Position numbers and translations under genes: made by a program. Source: Oscillospiraceae bacterium (GTDB taxonomy: Bacteria; Bacillota; Clostridia; Oscillospirales; SIG627). Taken from it: 64,000 nt of DNA. Positions 43,926-49,624 of this stretch are shown here, one piece after another; position 1 is the stretch's first letter; the number at the start of each line of letters is the position of its first letter. The notes under the pieces were generated by a model. It was not told the origin of the DNA. It saw only the letters and a program-made list of their open reading frames with translations, and did not search any database. Where the stretch lies: the NCBI GenBank assembly GCA_015063605.1, contig SVTV01000005.1, positions 1-64,000 of the forward strand, read 5' to 3'.

Positions 43926-44000
43926 AACGGGCAATATTAAATCGATTGCCCGTTCACCGGTGGAACAAATCTGCATTTTCCGGGTATAAAGCCCGGAAAA
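43926..44000 (+). promoter_or_regulatory. Two-hairpin leader of ECF sigma copy 1
   Basis: Hairpin 1: AACGGGCAAT (43926-43935) pairs with ATTGCCCGTT (43945-43954). Hairpin 2: TTTTCCGGG (43976-43984) pairs with CCCGGAAAA (43992-44000) and ends just before the AAAGGAG ribosome site. The segment CGGGAAAAAGAAAGG, in nearly the same form, also precedes sigma copy 2 at 48176. Confidence 0.55.
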
Positions 44001-44019
44001 AGAAAGGAGCGTTTAAAAT

Positions 44020-44565
44020 TTGTTTACAGTCATCGAAGATCATAAAGAGACACGTCTTGCGGAAGAGCTTTTTCTTACATACAAAGAAAAAATGTACCGT
44101 ATCGCTGTCTCCATTCTTAAAAACCCTCCCGATGCCGAGGATGCGGTAATGGATGCCGCATTGTCCATGGTAAAGAATATCTCCCTGTTTTCTCCTCTTG
44201 AAAGAGAGGAACGTGAATCCCTGATAGTTATCATAGTGAGAAATGCGGCAATAAACCGATATCGGAAAAACAGCAGGGATACGACTGTTCTTCTTGATGA
44301 ATCACATGAAAACGTTCCCGATAACGAGCCTACTCCCGAGGAGCTTTTTATCATGGGAGAATCCTTCGACACCTTATTGGATATCATCTTATCTCTCGAT
44401 CCGATATACCGTGATATTATGGTAATGAAATTCCTTTACGAGCATGATAACGAAACGATCGCGAAAATATTGGGAATAGCGGAATCGACCGTCAGAGTAA
44501 GGCTTTGGAGGGCAAAAAGCCTTCTCGAAGGAAAGTGCGAACAAAATAAAAGAAAAGGAGAATGA
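44020..44565 (+). CDS. ECF sigma factor, copy 1
   Basis: The 181-residue product has sigma region 2 (ELFLTYKEKMYRIAVSILKNPPDAEDAVMDAAL) in part (YRIAVSILKN, DAEDAVMDA) and region 4 with the helix-turn-helix IAKILGIAESTVRVRLWRAKSLL, with an acidic linker NVPDNEPTPEELF between them. It begins at a TTG (AAAGGAG at about ten bases upstream); no closer ATG is in frame near it. The next gene follows at four bases and encodes a single-pass membrane protein, the usual arrangement for a sigma/anti-sigma pair. It is about 75 percent alike by eye to copy 2. Confidence 0.9.
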   Translation: MFTVIEDHKETRLAEELFLTYKEKMYRIAVSILKNPPDAEDAVMDAALSMVKNISLFSPLEREERESLIVIIVRNAAINRYRKNSRDTTVLLDESHENVPDNEPTPEELFIMGESFDTLLDIILSLDPIYRDIMVMKFLYEHDNETIAKILGIAESTVRVRLWRAKSLLEGKCEQNKRKGE

Positions 44566-44569
44566 AGTC

Positions 44570-45877
44570 ATGAAAAATGAAAATATCTTAAAGATGCTCA
44601 AAGAGCTGCAAAAGAGTAATATTGACGAATTGAATGTTCCGGAAAACGTGCCTGCCTTCTCCTCCGGAAAAGAAAAAGAGATATTAAAGGCAATGCGAAA
44701 GCTTGAAAAGGAACGGGAAAGAACGATAAAAGCACTGGCATGCCGCAGATCCTCACGCTTTTTACGGAGACTACCCGCGGCGATCGTTCTTGTCGTACTT
44801 CTGGCAAGCACGCTGATAATGTTTTCGGGCGCTTTCTTTGAAAGCTTCAATACAGATTTCAACAACAGTCCGTATATATTGTACGATGCGATGATCATCG
44901 ATTTTGAAAACGGTACCGCAGCACCTGCCAAAGGTCTTGAAAATGCCCGTTTTTCCCACGGATTCACCGGTTATTATCATCGATACGGAAGCATGATAGC
45001 ATTGACACTACGAAGGGAAGCTTTCGGGATTTATCCCTACGGGTATAATTTTTACGGATACAATATAGAAACGAACGAAACATTTAAATTTGATTATGTT
45101 TCGCAGGAAACGAAAAACTTCATTTTCGGCAACAAGAATAAGTTTTACGCATTGGACTCTTCAGATCCCAGCAGCGATACGGAGCAGTATTTTCTTGTAG
45201 AGTTTGATTTATCCGACGGAAGCTCAAAGAAGCTTTTCGATCTTCCGAAAAAGACAATGCCCGAGCATATTCACTACACGACCACAGAATCTCTGCGTCC
45301 CTTTGCGGCAGATGATAAGTATATTTATTCCTACATTGATTATGAAGGAATATACAGAACAAAGCTCGACGGAAGCAAAACCGAATTGATCTACAGAGGA
45401 TTTGTTTACCATCCCGAAAAATGCGCCAACGGGTACATTTATTTTGAGAGTATGGATGCGGAGATCATATCCATCGGCGGAATTGCGCGCGTAAGCATGA
45501 ATATGTACCGTATTCCAATGAAGGGCGGCAAGCGTGAGCTCTTCTGTGCTCCCTTGGAAACAAAGCACTTTTATCCGTGGATAAACAAAGAAACGGGATA
45601 TGTCTATTACAGAAGCGTAAAAGAAGGTACGGAATACTTACCCGACGATTTTTATGTAGTAAGGGAGCCCGGTAAGATAGAGCTCTTATACGAAGTGGAT
45701 GACGATATCCATATCGATTACAGCGATGCCAGAACGCATGAGGATTATGTCTATGCCAAATACAGAACGATCACCCTGAAGCATTACCACGGATACAGAT
45801 ACTCGGAGTACTATCCCGAGCTGATAGTGATCAACGGCAAGACCGGAGAAGTGAAAAAGATAGCTCTTCCCGAATAA
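44570..45877 (+). CDS. Putative membrane anti-sigma partner with beta-propeller-like ectodomain
   Basis: The 435-residue product has a cytoplasmic N-terminus (1-66, helical, charged), one membrane helix (about 67-89) and an extracellular domain rich in Tyr and strands such as FAADDKYIYSYIDYEG, ANGYIYFESM and EDYVYAKY, which resembles DUF5050-type propellers. Its position after the ECF gene and the topology suggest an anti-sigma factor that releases the sigma on an outside signal. No classic zinc anti-sigma motif (HxxxCxxC) is seen. A second, decayed copy lies at 48755-49373. Confidence 0.75.
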   Translation: MKNENILKMLKELQKSNIDELNVPENVPAFSSGKEKEILKAMRKLEKERERTIKALACRRSSRFLRRLPAAIVLVVLLASTLIMFSGAFFESFNTDFNNSPYILYDAMIIDFENGTAAPAKGLENARFSHGFTGYYHRYGSMIALTLRREAFGIYPYGYNFYGYNIETNETFKFDYVSQETKNFIFGNKNKFYALDSSDPSSDTEQYFLVEFDLSDGSSKKLFDLPKKTMPEHIHYTTTESLRPFAADDKYIYSYIDYEGIYRTKLDGSKTELIYRGFVYHPEKCANGYIYFESMDAEIISIGGIARVSMNMYRIPMKGGKRELFCAPLETKHFYPWINKETGYVYYRSVKEGTEYLPDDFYVVREPGKIELLYEVDDDIHIDYSDARTHEDYVYAKYRTITLKHYHGYRYSEYYPELIVINGKTGEVKKIALPE

Positions 45878-46101: not shown

Positions 46102-46229
46102 TTATATGCACCATCCCTCTGCGGATAGTGGGTTCGAGCTTCTGCCCGATTGTGTGTGGACGTCCACGCGCTATGCTTGCCCCAGACGCGAGAGTCTTGG
46201 ATTTCTACCTGCGGTAGATATCTTCCGAC

Positions 46230-46258
46230 TTGAAGAAGCTCCGATTTCGTGCTATAAT
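46230..46258 (+). promoter_or_regulatory. Promoter for the XRE-PolC-like gene
   Basis: TTGAAG (46230-46235), a 17-bp spacer and TATAAT (46253-46258), then an ACGGAGG site and the ATG at 46286. The transcript leader would be only about 20 bases. Confidence 0.8.
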
Positions 46259-46285: not shown

Positions 46286-47704
46286 ATGAGAGACTATAGT
46301 TTTGGTAATTTTCTGCATGAGCTAAGATCGCGTAGAGGCCTTACGCAGTATCAGCTCGGCGCGCTCGTCGGCGTTTCCGACAAGGCGGTTTCAAAATGGG
46401 AGAACGGTTCTTCCAAACCGCAGAGCAATATTTTATATAAGCTCAGTGAAATACTCGAGGTTAGTGTCGATGAGCTTCTGACTTGCAAATATCATTCCTT
46501 TGAAAAGAAGGATACAAAAGGAGTATTTGCAATGAAAAAACAACTATGGGAAAAGGTCTTTGATACTATACGCGAACGTTATGGGGATTCGGTACCTATT
46601 GAAATAATGAACCGTTTGCTGTCAGAACACGCAGAAATGCAGTATACGGATATGATCGTAAGTTTAGATTTGTTGTCCGTACTTGCCGCGGAAGCCAAAA
46701 AGCAAGGCGAGCATATTCACGTACTTGGCGGAACGGGGGCATCTTTTGTCGCGTATCTTCTCGGAGCGACGGAGACGAGTCCATTGAAACCGCATTATTA
46801 TTGCCCGAATTGTCGCACGGTTATCTTTGATAACAGCGCGGATGACTCTTTTGACCTTCCTCGGAAAAAATGTTCTTGCGGAAAAGAAATGCAAACGGAC
46901 GGACATAATCTGCCGTTCGAAACTTATCGCCACGCTGTACAAACGACCACGGGGTGTTATGTGGCGATGTCTCCGCGTTTTTTGAAAGCTGCCAAAACCG
47001 TCATAGATACCTATTTTAAGGAGTGTGAACTGACCGCTGCAGAACAGGAAGAAAATCGTCACATAACTTATACCGCCTCTTCGGACAAATCCGTTTGTTC
47101 CGTTACATTTTTAGCAAATACAGAGTTTGAACGGTATCAAGCCTTGGAACGCGCAACAGCAACAGCGTTTGGGAGAGTAAATTTTTCTCAAGCTGAAGTA
47201 CTTGCCGAGTTTCAAAGGGGAAATACCAATGGTATTACGGAGTTAGGTTCGAAATTTTGTAAAAATATAGTAGAACAAGTTGTGCCTCAATCATTTTATG
47301 ATTTGATTCAGATCGCGGGATTGTCTCACGGCATAGGAGTATGGTTTGACAATGCGAGGGATCTCATAAGTCAAGGTGTTGACGTAAAAAATGTGATCGC
47401 TTATCGCGACGATGTGTTCAATGATATAAAGGAAAAGATGATAGCCAAAGGATTAACCGATACGGGATTTGCATATAAGGTGATGGAAGATGTACGTCGG
47501 GGATCCTATGCAAAAAACGGTATTCCCGATGAGATTACATTCAGTCTGAAAGAAATCGGTCTGGAGGATTGGTTTGTCGATTCAATCGGAAAGATTCAAT
47601 ATTTGTTACAAAAAGCACACGGCGTTACCATGGTCAAATTATCGGCAACGCTGATGTGGTATAAGATTCATTATCCAAAGGAATTTGCCGAAATCATGTT
47701 GTGA
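46286..47704 (+). CDS. XRE helix-turn-helix fused to a PolC-core-like domain without the catalytic Asp motifs
   Basis: Residues 1-65 are an XRE/Cro DNA-binding domain (RRGLTQYQLGALVGVSDKAVSKWENG in part: LTQYQLGALVGVSDKAVSKW). Residues 95-472 follow the order of the PolC polymerase core. VLGGTGASFVAYLLGATE matches the SRGSVGSSFVA region. YYCPNC and CSCGKEMQTDGHNLPFET match the zinc finger (C173, C176, C196, C198). AGLSHGIGVWFDNARDLI, AYRDD, GFAYKVMEDVRRG and IGKIQYLLQKAH match the thumb/finger blocks. The stretch that should carry PDIDLNFSG and LDILGHDDP is replaced by about 100 residues lacking both, so polymerase activity is not expected. The ATG at 46286 is chosen for its ribosome site and promoter. 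Function unknown; a regulator that mimics or senses replicase is one idea. Confidence 0.85.
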   Translation: MRDYSFGNFLHELRSRRGLTQYQLGALVGVSDKAVSKWENGSSKPQSNILYKLSEILEVSVDELLTCKYHSFEKKDTKGVFAMKKQLWEKVFDTIRERYGDSVPIEIMNRLLSEHAEMQYTDMIVSLDLLSVLAAEAKKQGEHIHVLGGTGASFVAYLLGATETSPLKPHYYCPNCRTVIFDNSADDSFDLPRKKCSCGKEMQTDGHNLPFETYRHAVQTTTGCYVAMSPRFLKAAKTVIDTYFKECELTAAEQEENRHITYTASSDKSVCSVTFLANTEFERYQALERATATAFGRVNFSQAEVLAEFQRGNTNGITELGSKFCKNIVEQVVPQSFYDLIQIAGLSHGIGVWFDNARDLISQGVDVKNVIAYRDDVFNDIKEKMIAKGLTDTGFAYKVMEDVRRGSYAKNGIPDEITFSLKEIGLEDWFVDSIGKIQYLLQKAHGVTMVKLSATLMWYKIHYPKEFAEIML

Positions 47705-47710
47705 TTACTT

Positions 47711-47932
47711 GGGGGCGTCGCATTAAGCGACGCCCCCGCTAAAACAGCGGACGAAAATAGGGGACGGGAACCCGCTATTTGGAATTGCGAAATTCGCAAT
47801 TCATGAAACTTGAACGTTTTTGGCGTGCTTTAGTACGAATTTTTACGTAATTTCGGTGCCAAAACGATGAATTTTATTCATCGAGTTCAATTTCAGGGCT
47901 TGGCTCACGTTAGTGAGACAGCCCCTTTTCTT
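47711..47932 (+). repeat. Hairpin-rich ~200-bp repeat, copy A
   Basis: Starts six bases after the XRE-PolC stop. It contains the perfect hairpin GGGGGCGTCG/CGACGCCCCC, then CGCT/AGCG, a 21-base palindrome at 47782-47802 (only in this copy), CGATGAAT/ATTCATCG, and a GGCT-GCTCAC/GTGAG-AGCCC hairpin ending in TTTTCTTT. Apart from the palindrome and one base, it is identical to copy B at 49424-49624. It may be an RNA element or a small mobile repeat that also ends transcription. Confidence 0.8.
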
Positions 47933-48048: not shown

Positions 48049-48203
48049 ATGCGTGATTCTCACTTTTAATGCGTTTTTTGCAGATCGCACTTATATGTAG
48101 AAATATTTTTTTAAAAATGTTATAATTATTTTGAAAACCGTGATACACTTTGTTTTTTTGGAAAAGATCCGAATAGATCGGGAAAAAGAAAGGGGTGCTT
48201 ATT

Positions 48204-48758
48204 ATGTTGTTCACAGTTACAAATGATCTTAAAGAACGCAGTCTTGCAGAAGAGCTTTTTCTTACATACAAAGAAAAAATGTACCGTATCGCTGTCTCCA
48301 TTCTTAAAAACTCTCCCGATGCTGAGGACGCAGTAATGGATGCCGCATTGTCAATAGTAAAAAATATTTCTTTATTTTCACCGCTTCCGCAAAACAAACG
48401 GGAATCCCTGATCGTTATAATAGCCAGAAACACCGCTATAAACCGATATCGAAAAAACAAAAGGGGCAATACAGTCTTCTTTGATGAAGCCTACGAAAAT
48501 ATGCCGGATAATGAGCCTACTCCGGAGGAGCTTTTTATCATGGATGAGTCGTATGACGTTCTGCTTGGTGAGATCATGTCCCTTGAACCGCTATACCGCG
48601 ATATTATCGTTATGAAGTTTTTATATGACCGTGATAACAAAACTATAGCGGACCTGTTGGGGATAGCGGAATCCACCGTCAGAGTGAGACTTTGGCGTGC
48701 TAAAGCTCTGCTTGAAAACATACGAAACAAAAATAAGAAAAGGAGAATAATGTCATGA
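48204..48758 (+). CDS. ECF sigma factor, copy 2
   Basis: A 184-residue ECF sigma closely related to copy 1 at 44020; the first 60 residues differ at few positions (YRIAVSILKNSPDAEDAVMDAALS) and region 4 again ends IAESTVRVRLWRAKALL. The ATG at 48204 is chosen since AAAGAAAGGGG lies ahead; a GTG nine bases earlier is possible. The stop overlaps the start of its partner gene by four bases. The sigma itself is intact although the partner is broken, so it may be unrestrained or controlled by copy 1's partner. Confidence 0.9.
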   Translation: MLFTVTNDLKERSLAEELFLTYKEKMYRIAVSILKNSPDAEDAVMDAALSIVKNISLFSPLPQNKRESLIVIIARNTAINRYRKNKRGNTVFFDEAYENMPDNEPTPEELFIMDESYDVLLGEIMSLEPLYRDIIVMKFLYDRDNKTIADLLGIAESTVRVRLWRAKALLENIRNKNKKRRIMS

Positions 48759-49373
48759 AAAACGCAAACCTCGTAAAAGCTCTTGAAGAGCTTGAAAAAA
48801 GCAATATCGATGAGCTCGGCGACCGTGAAAACGAATCAAGGTTATCCGACAAAAAGACAAGAGAGATCCTTAATGCCATCGAGAATAATGAACGCAAGGA
48901 TGATGAAGCTTTGAAAACAAGGATGCCTGTACGCAAATCTTCACGGCTTTTGCGCAGATTACCCGTTGCGGTCATTCTCATCGCCCTTATAACAAGCGCA
49001 TTGATGATCTTCAGCGGTGCCTTCTCGGATAAGTCCGAAACGAATCCGAACAAGGAATTTGTTCCGTTGTTTGATAACAACCCGTATTATATCTACGAAT
49101 CGTTACTCGGTCCCACACTTGTCAACATGGATGAGTGCTCGGTAACGGTCATAGACGAAATACCCGAAGTTTATAAAGATTCCAGATTTTACGGACCCTT
49201 CCATTTTTACAGTAACACAATAGCCCTCGCCGTAAGAAGCCGAAACAGGATACGTTTATTACAGAAACTTAAAGAAAGGCGACGGCTTCAAAGCGGGCAC
49301 GATGTCTTCTTCCGATGATATTTACGTAGTAAGGAAGCCGGGAGAGATGAAAAAGATAAGTATAACCGAATAA
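48755..49373 (+). pseudogene. Decayed anti-sigma-like partner of ECF copy 2
   Basis: The N-terminus (KALEELEKSNIDELGDREN, membrane helix about residues 70-90) matches the intact partner at 44570. After SNTIALAVRSR the frame jumps: about 190 codons of the ectodomain are missing and the remainder is read in another frame, ending at 49318. In the shifted frame the DNA still encodes ETGYVYYRNLKKGDGFKAG and DDIYVVRKPGEMKKISITE, matching the C-terminus of the intact copy, with a stop at 49371-49373. This is an internal deletion with frameshift. Confidence 0.88.
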
Positions 49374-49423: not shown

Positions 49424-49624
49424 GGGGGCGTCGCATTAAGCGACGCCCCCGCTAAAACAGCGGACGAAAATAGGGGACGGGAACCCGCTATTTTCGGAAA
49501 CTTGAACGTTTTTGGCGTGTTTTAGTACGAATTTTTACGTAATTTCGGTGCCAAAACGATGAATTTTATTCATCGAGTTCAATTTCAGGGCTTGGCTCAC
49601 GTTAGTGAGACAGCCCCTTTTCTT
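49424..49624 (+). repeat. Hairpin-rich ~200-bp repeat, copy B
   Basis: Second copy of the element at 47711-47932, beginning 51 bases after the decayed partner gene and ending beside the ABC-F gene. It lacks the 21-base palindrome of copy A, has TCGG in its place, and has one further base change (TGTTTTAG versus TGCTTTAG). Confidence 0.8.

Follow-up and report, generated by a model that had tools for sequence, protein, structure and literature searches.

An XRE-Type DNA-Binding Domain Fused to a PolC-Like Core Lacking the Catalytic Aspartate Pattern: A Candidate Autoregulated Regulator in Clostridia

Introduction

The window, i.e. the whole stretch of DNA analysed here (64,000 nt), carries an open reading frame that had been predicted from the sequence to encode an XRE regulator fused to a catalytically empty core of the replicative DNA polymerase PolC. 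The locus raises the question of whether this frame represents a functional gene, and of what role a polymerase core devoid of its catalytic residues may have when joined to a DNA-binding domain. The fusion itself is borne out: the catalytic aspartates are replaced in the window protein and there are about 20 homologues. The role proposed below is that of a one-component regulator whose PolC-derived part may act as a sensor.

Results

Open reading frame and domain layout

The XRE-PolC gene (positions 46286..47704, + strand) is an intact frame, open over 472 codons, and a ribosome site, AGACGGAGGA, precedes its ATG. A sigma-70 type promoter, TTGAAG-17-TATAAT (46230..46258, + strand), is found upstream and is kept in homologues. 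The intact frame, its own promoter and its ribosome site are all as originally predicted.

The XRE/HTH_3 DNA-binding domain that had been proposed for the N-terminal region is present at residues 1–66 (46286..46483, + strand), with the recognition-helix motif SDKAVSKWE. Pfam places HTH_3 at residues 10–64 (E = 1e-13; 51.4 bits, curated cut-off 23), and structure comparison of the model shows a similarity of this domain to the P22 c2 repressor (Z = 12.2). The domain is followed by a PolC palm N-terminal half (residues 79–214; 46520..46927, + strand), which contains a four-Cys site, PHYYCPNC...CSCG, and the block DGHNLPFET. The four cysteines are kept in 18/18 members. Next is a shortened palm centre of two strands without the catalytic Asp pattern (residues 215–312; 46928..47221, + strand), and then a PolC fingers-like domain with GLSHG, YRDD, MEDxR and KAH (residues 313–472; 47222..47701, + strand).

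Directly 3′ of the stop codon the sequence reads as a hairpin, GGGGGCGTCGC-ATTAA-GCGACGCCCCC (47711..47740, + strand), which is probably the transcript end. Other family members display a GC-rich hairpin in the same position after the gene. The hairpin in the window is without a T run and was not among the output of the terminator scan, and an Rfam search of the locus yielded no known RNA element.

The PolC-like core

The match of the window protein to PolC is far above chance. A phmmer search gives E = 2.7e-50 with the Enterococcus faecium PolC (9qpc) at residues 86–214 and 309–464, and E = 6e-46 with that of Geobacillus kaustophilus. The profile–profile alignment (hhalign) to PolC spans residues 84–467, the middle segment included (100% over 377 columns). 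In an AlphaFold model built from 15 family sequences (pLDDT 77), residues 79–472 superpose on PolC residues 825–1302 (3F2C; Z = 33.9, 2.7 Å, 381 residues). As modelled, residues 79–472 are a compact PolC palm-fingers core, and both the profile and the fold of a C-family polymerase match across it. The claim that the sequence blocks follow one another in PolC order is upheld, and the profile search against PolC that had been suggested for residues 90–472 is significant.

Large parts of PolC are missing. Pfam detects in the window protein only the HTH, the finger and a sub-threshold DNA_pol3_alpha match, with no OB, exonuclease, PHP or C-terminal HhH domain, and the NCBIfam PolC score is 229 bits (cut-off 873). 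The beta-clamp motif of PolC is QL[S/D]LF (PMC3919608); it was not found in the window protein sequence. Binding to the clamp or to replisome partners, which had been envisaged, is not borne out, as the C-terminal parts of PolC are absent. In addition, some 90 residues that PolC has between its palm strands, KRTTGQHPGG among them, are deleted. This deletion probably removes the thumb, which in PolC sits inside the palm (PMC12592400). The host genome also encodes an ordinary PolC of 1484 aa, on a different contig.

Two palm strands are modelled by AlphaFold in the window protein, at residues 223–228 and 270–277. Residues of these catalytic strands were aligned by hand, with the predicted order of strands and helices as a guide, in the 17 members that have sequence in this region. 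The first catalytic Asp is replaced by S, G, H or R and the third by T, A or S, each in 17/17 members; the second is Asp in 13/17 and is Tyr in the window protein. The catalytic Asp pattern of PDID and KLDILGHD that marks an active PolC is therefore not found in XRE-PolC. The blocks PDIDLNFSG and LDILGHDDP had been described as absent; the loss of their Asp pattern holds, and the strands themselves are present in the model.

In E. faecium PolC, the pocket for guanine analogues and dGTP is made up of H1185, Y1274, F1276, H1280 and Y1284 (PMC12592400). Their equivalents in XRE-PolC are mostly kept: H in 17/17 members, Y in 15/17, F in 14/17, H in 15/17 and Y in 12/17. The window protein deviates at two of these positions, F>L at 441 and Y>M at 449. 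His348 and Lys443 (of KAH) are found in 17/17 members and Arg374 (of RDD) in 16/17. Since inhibitors have been seen in PolC structures only with DNA bound (PMC12592400) and the thumb is probably deleted, it is uncertain that the core binds a nucleotide without a template.

Family, selection and distribution

The XRE-PolC family comprises about 20 loci with 32%–96% identity across the PolC part. The closer homologues (55%–85% identity to the window protein) come from Clostridia metagenome-assembled genomes (MAGs), mostly labelled ruminant gut, and the close group aligns without gaps across 472 aa. The distant ones (32%–51% over the PolC part) are from genomes of the order to which the window belongs. 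All sequences form a single clade with support of 100/100 in two trees; the family is of single origin.

Pairwise dN/dS values of whole genes are ~0.1–0.2. Purifying selection acts on all domains, and the middle segment (palm centre) evolves fastest. There are also family-specific fixed changes, G372A and F397Y, each in 16/16 sequences. A fusion artefact of a pseudogene without purifying selection had been named as the finding that would count against the fusion; the homologues and the dN/dS values rule out a pseudogene or an assembly artefact.

Carriers are rare: 7/394 sampled genomes of the order, and 1/391 in a class-wide sample, this one being the genome of the window itself (threshold E ≤ 1e-60). 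An ordinary PolC is also present in every carrier genome checked except G130, a 78% complete genome with no PolC listed at the threshold used. Contigs that break inside the gene had raised the idea of a multi-copy family, which was discarded, as there is mostly one copy per genome. Genome G773 has two copies (L034 and L042), and these display near-identical HTH codons and a diverged remainder, as would result from copying of the 5′ module from one to the other.

Among the matches listed, viral contigs (viral_contigs) gave only one weak relative, with 23% identity over residues 301–464. Listed matches from phages extend over no more than 71% of the query and the plasmid records examined contain longer polymerases without an XRE domain; the XRE-PolC architecture was seen in no phage, viral or plasmid record listed. 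A phage or plasmid origin was set aside, there being no homologue of this architecture among the records examined.

Promoter and palindrome

A palindromic operator-like site, TCTACCTGCGGTAGATA (46204..46220, + strand), lies upstream of the −35 hexamer at a distance of 11 bp and is centred at approximately −53 relative to the predicted start of transcription. It has one exact copy in its own genome. The only other site with one mismatch, apart from an overlapping match on the opposite strand, falls within unrelated open reading frames or at their edge.

The pattern TCTACC-N3-GGTAGA is found in the XRE-PolC promoter in 16 of the 20 carrier genomes (17 sites), and is usually the sole exact copy in the genome; a reversed-pattern control gave four forward-strand matches across all 20 genomes. 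The gap between palindrome and −35 hexamer is 11–12 bp in all 12 promoters measured. It is 11 bp in L035 as well, although the distance to the ATG there is 9 bp longer, and L066 also has the palindrome. This fixed spacing, and the fact that the site is usually the only exact copy per genome, suggest that XRE-PolC autoregulates via the palindrome. With an operator at about −53, activation would fit at least as well as repression. The proposal that the protein is a regulator gains indirect support from the operator-like palindrome, which accompanies the gene and keeps a constant distance from its promoter.

There are six further palindrome sites. As four of them adjoin other XRE genes with the motif SDKA[VI]SKWE (L147, L149, L150 and L151), the palindrome appears tied to this HTH type, of which TCTACC-N3-GGTAGA may be a general operator. 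A regulon elsewhere in the genomes was considered and rejected, the extra exact palindromes being few and mostly beside other XRE genes.

Internal start and 5′ module

A second set of start signals is present within the gene: a Shine-Dalgarno sequence AAAGGAG, an 8-nt spacer and an ATG at codon 83 (46517..46534, + strand). The DNA of this segment is near-invariant in the family, whereas synonymous positions in other parts of the gene differ strongly. In a comparison of codon use in 12 XRE-PolC genes, the invariant residues that have one codon throughout are 10 of 20 in codons 1–24, 5 of 7 in codons 76–87, and 3 of 89 in codons 88–470. Because of this contrast, a second product of 390 aa without the HTH is likely in most members. 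The internal ATG has been lost in L035 and L037.

The first ~84 codons of close pairs are far more similar than the remainder, e.g. L031 and L034 are near-identical to codon 84 and diverged beyond it. This suggests that the 5′ module has been swapped by recombination.

Horizontal transfer and neighbouring genes

XRE-PolC identity is discordant with that of the host PolC. Genomes G770 and G771 display a PolC identity of 64% and an XRE-PolC identity of 94%; for G769 and G776 the values are 94% and 53%. The discordance, together with the patchy distribution, makes horizontal transfer probable. The carrier genomes are MAGs, in which binning errors are possible; in G767 PolC and XRE-PolC are on the same contig.

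XRE-PolC occupies different intergenic sites in different genera. At most loci the similarity of the flanks is lost close to the operator at one end and shortly past the terminator hairpin at the other. Synteny is stable in the close pairs L029/L039 and L062/L063. No neighbouring gene is common to different genera, on which ground a conserved operon or defence island was rejected, and the conserved adjacent partner typical of a type II toxin-antitoxin system is likewise lacking. Most of the neighbours examined are housekeeping genes and others are unassigned; where Pfam gives a match, it is generally to an ordinary family (e.g. PrmA, BipA, a histidine kinase). PADLOC gave no defence model beyond the HTH, all 20 matches being in or around the HTH region. 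An association with defence, which the original prediction had entertained, is thus not borne out, and the survey of homologue neighbours that it proposed shows no shared gene and no mobility gene among those checked.

In the window the XRE-PolC gene is flanked by two gene pairs (44020–45877 and 48195–49318). Each pair has an ECF sigma factor gene (43995–44622 and 48181–48807; the two are related, with 78% identical DNA) followed by a reading frame with a similar start and no Pfam match, which may encode an anti-sigma factor; the second of these frames is short (187 vs 435 aa) and looks truncated. The 222-bp intergenic stretch that begins directly behind the XRE-PolC stop codon (47711–47932) is repeated with 90% identity 1.5 kb downstream, at 49424–49624.

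Discussion

Proposed mechanism

The reading favoured here, tentatively and with considerable doubt, is that XRE-PolC is an autoregulated regulator with a PolC-derived sensor: a one-gene, horizontally spreading one-component regulator in which the dead palm-fingers core would serve as the sensor and possibly as a decoy. The architecture, the lost catalytic residues, the palindrome at its fixed place, the conserved internal start signal, the purifying selection, the single origin and the patchy spread discordant with host PolC are results of computation. The autoregulation and its sign, the ligand binding and the decoy role are inferred and can be pictured in four steps. Probably acting as a dimer, the XRE domain would bind TCTACC-N3-GGTAGA upstream of its own −35 hexamer and keep expression low. 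The PolC-like core would bind a ligand of the active-site region of PolC, either an inhibitor resembling a nucleotide or a PolC-directed protein. Binding of the ligand would alter DNA binding, and transcription of the gene would rise. Surplus PolC-like protein, in part without the HTH and made from the internal ATG, would titrate the ligand, and the real PolC would be spared. This last step, in which a self-inducible core senses a PolC-directed agent and, in excess, shields the replicase, is itself rather doubtful.

The PolC core and fold, the ordinary PolC of the host, the loss of the catalytic aspartates with the pocket mostly kept, the palindrome, the codon conservation, the dN/dS values and the single clade speak for an autoregulated sensor. 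Against it are the two pocket residues lost in the window protein, the missing internal ATG in L035 and L037, a model built from few sequences, the fact that inhibitors have been seen in PolC only together with DNA, and the ambiguous sign of an operator at −53.

Other readings

The protein could instead be a transcription factor that senses nucleotide or replication stress, with a core that binds dNTPs or a related nucleotide, an HTH that controls several host genes, and no decoy function. An HTH joined to an enzyme-derived sensor is a known design and the basic and aromatic pocket residues are mostly kept. However, the single exact operator in its own genome, the location of the one-mismatch site in or at the edge of unrelated open reading frames, and the small number of additional sites in the other carriers, most of them beside other XRE genes, speak against it. 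The gene is moreover mobile, patchy and solitary, unlike a housekeeping regulator, and the core is without the part that grips DNA. This reading is considered unlikely.

Somewhat harder to sustain is an effector that interferes with replication, whose core would poison the replisome of host or phage while the HTH merely holds expression low. A dead polymerase core, a palindrome at its own promoter, a patchy horizontal spread and a diverging C-terminal part would all be in keeping with such an effector. However, competition with PolC is hard to envisage for a protein without the HhH domain, the clamp motif, OB and PHP, by which PolC holds DNA and its partners, and the gene has neither a partner antitoxin or immunity gene nor a conserved neighbour, nor a defence model beyond the HTH.

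It is improbable that the locus is a selfish or passenger cassette, i.e. a unit from operator to terminator whose spread relies on recombination at intergenic repeats and whose PolC-like part serves its own maintenance, not the host. The different intergenic sites across genera and the strong discordance of G770 and G771 are what such a cassette would show, but all domains are under purifying selection, synteny is stable in both close pairs, and the neighbours checked include no mobility gene. A decaying, functionless polymerase fragment, to which the loss of catalytic residues and of many PolC-invariant positions might point, is refuted by the low dN/dS and the family-specific invariant changes and can hardly be maintained.

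Significance

If the core of the favoured autoregulated sensor responds to PolC-directed agents, this would indicate a natural pressure in gut Clostridia on PolC, the target of ibezapolstat, and would bear on the bacterial response to this drug class. Leaving the decoy idea aside, XRE-PolC represents a family of mobile pseudo-polymerases that is under selection and offers an operator, a promoter and a domain boundary ready for testing.

Comparison with known systems

Several diverged PolC-like proteins were encountered. Genome G005 has a second PolC (L157:4172-6826, 884 aa), which like XRE-PolC has a diverged PolC core; unlike XRE-PolC it has PHP and the catalytic Asp and is without an XRE domain. 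In one tree it is near the XRE-PolC clade (support 98/96), but the grouping is lost with more sequences and may represent long-branch attraction. A descent of XRE-PolC from this protein, found in one tree and not recovered in the second, was not retained. The gene is near a WYL regulator gene and an SNF2/ResIII-type gene, and a relative of 829 aa is present in genome G052. A 915-aa ‘hypothetical’ protein from Cetobacterium somerae plasmid p3 (L161:3768-6512) also has a diverged PolC-like core; it was ruled out as a similarly empty core, since PDLD and KLDIL are kept.

A literature search, in which subscription journals and preprints were mostly outside the scope, found no XRE-PolC fusion and no such XRE regulator. 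In a survey of bacterial polymerases from 2026 (PMC12926913), a word search for HTH gave no match.

PolC itself (G. kaustophilus 3F2B/3F2C, E. faecium 9QPC) shares with XRE-PolC the four-Cys palm N-terminal half, GLSHG, RDD and KAH. XRE-PolC differs in being without the catalytic Asp pattern, ~90 palm residues, and the OB, exonuclease, PHP and C-terminal domains, and in having an XRE domain. The XRE/Cro-C1 regulators of Clostridia with SDKAVSKWE resemble it in the HTH_3 fold and in having TCTACC-N3-GGTAGA near the gene; they differ in the C-terminal domain, which in XRE-PolC is a PolC-derived core.

In NadR, BirA, PutA and NrdR, an HTH or other DNA-binding domain is combined with one that comes from a metabolic or nucleotide enzyme, and such proteins are often autoregulated. 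The combination of an HTH with an enzyme-derived sensor is an already known design, common to these proteins and XRE-PolC; in XRE-PolC the core is that of a DNA polymerase and catalysis is lost. To our knowledge, no one-component regulator built on an enzyme core has that of a DNA polymerase, and none of the transcription regulators known to us has the core of a replicative DNA polymerase for its second domain.
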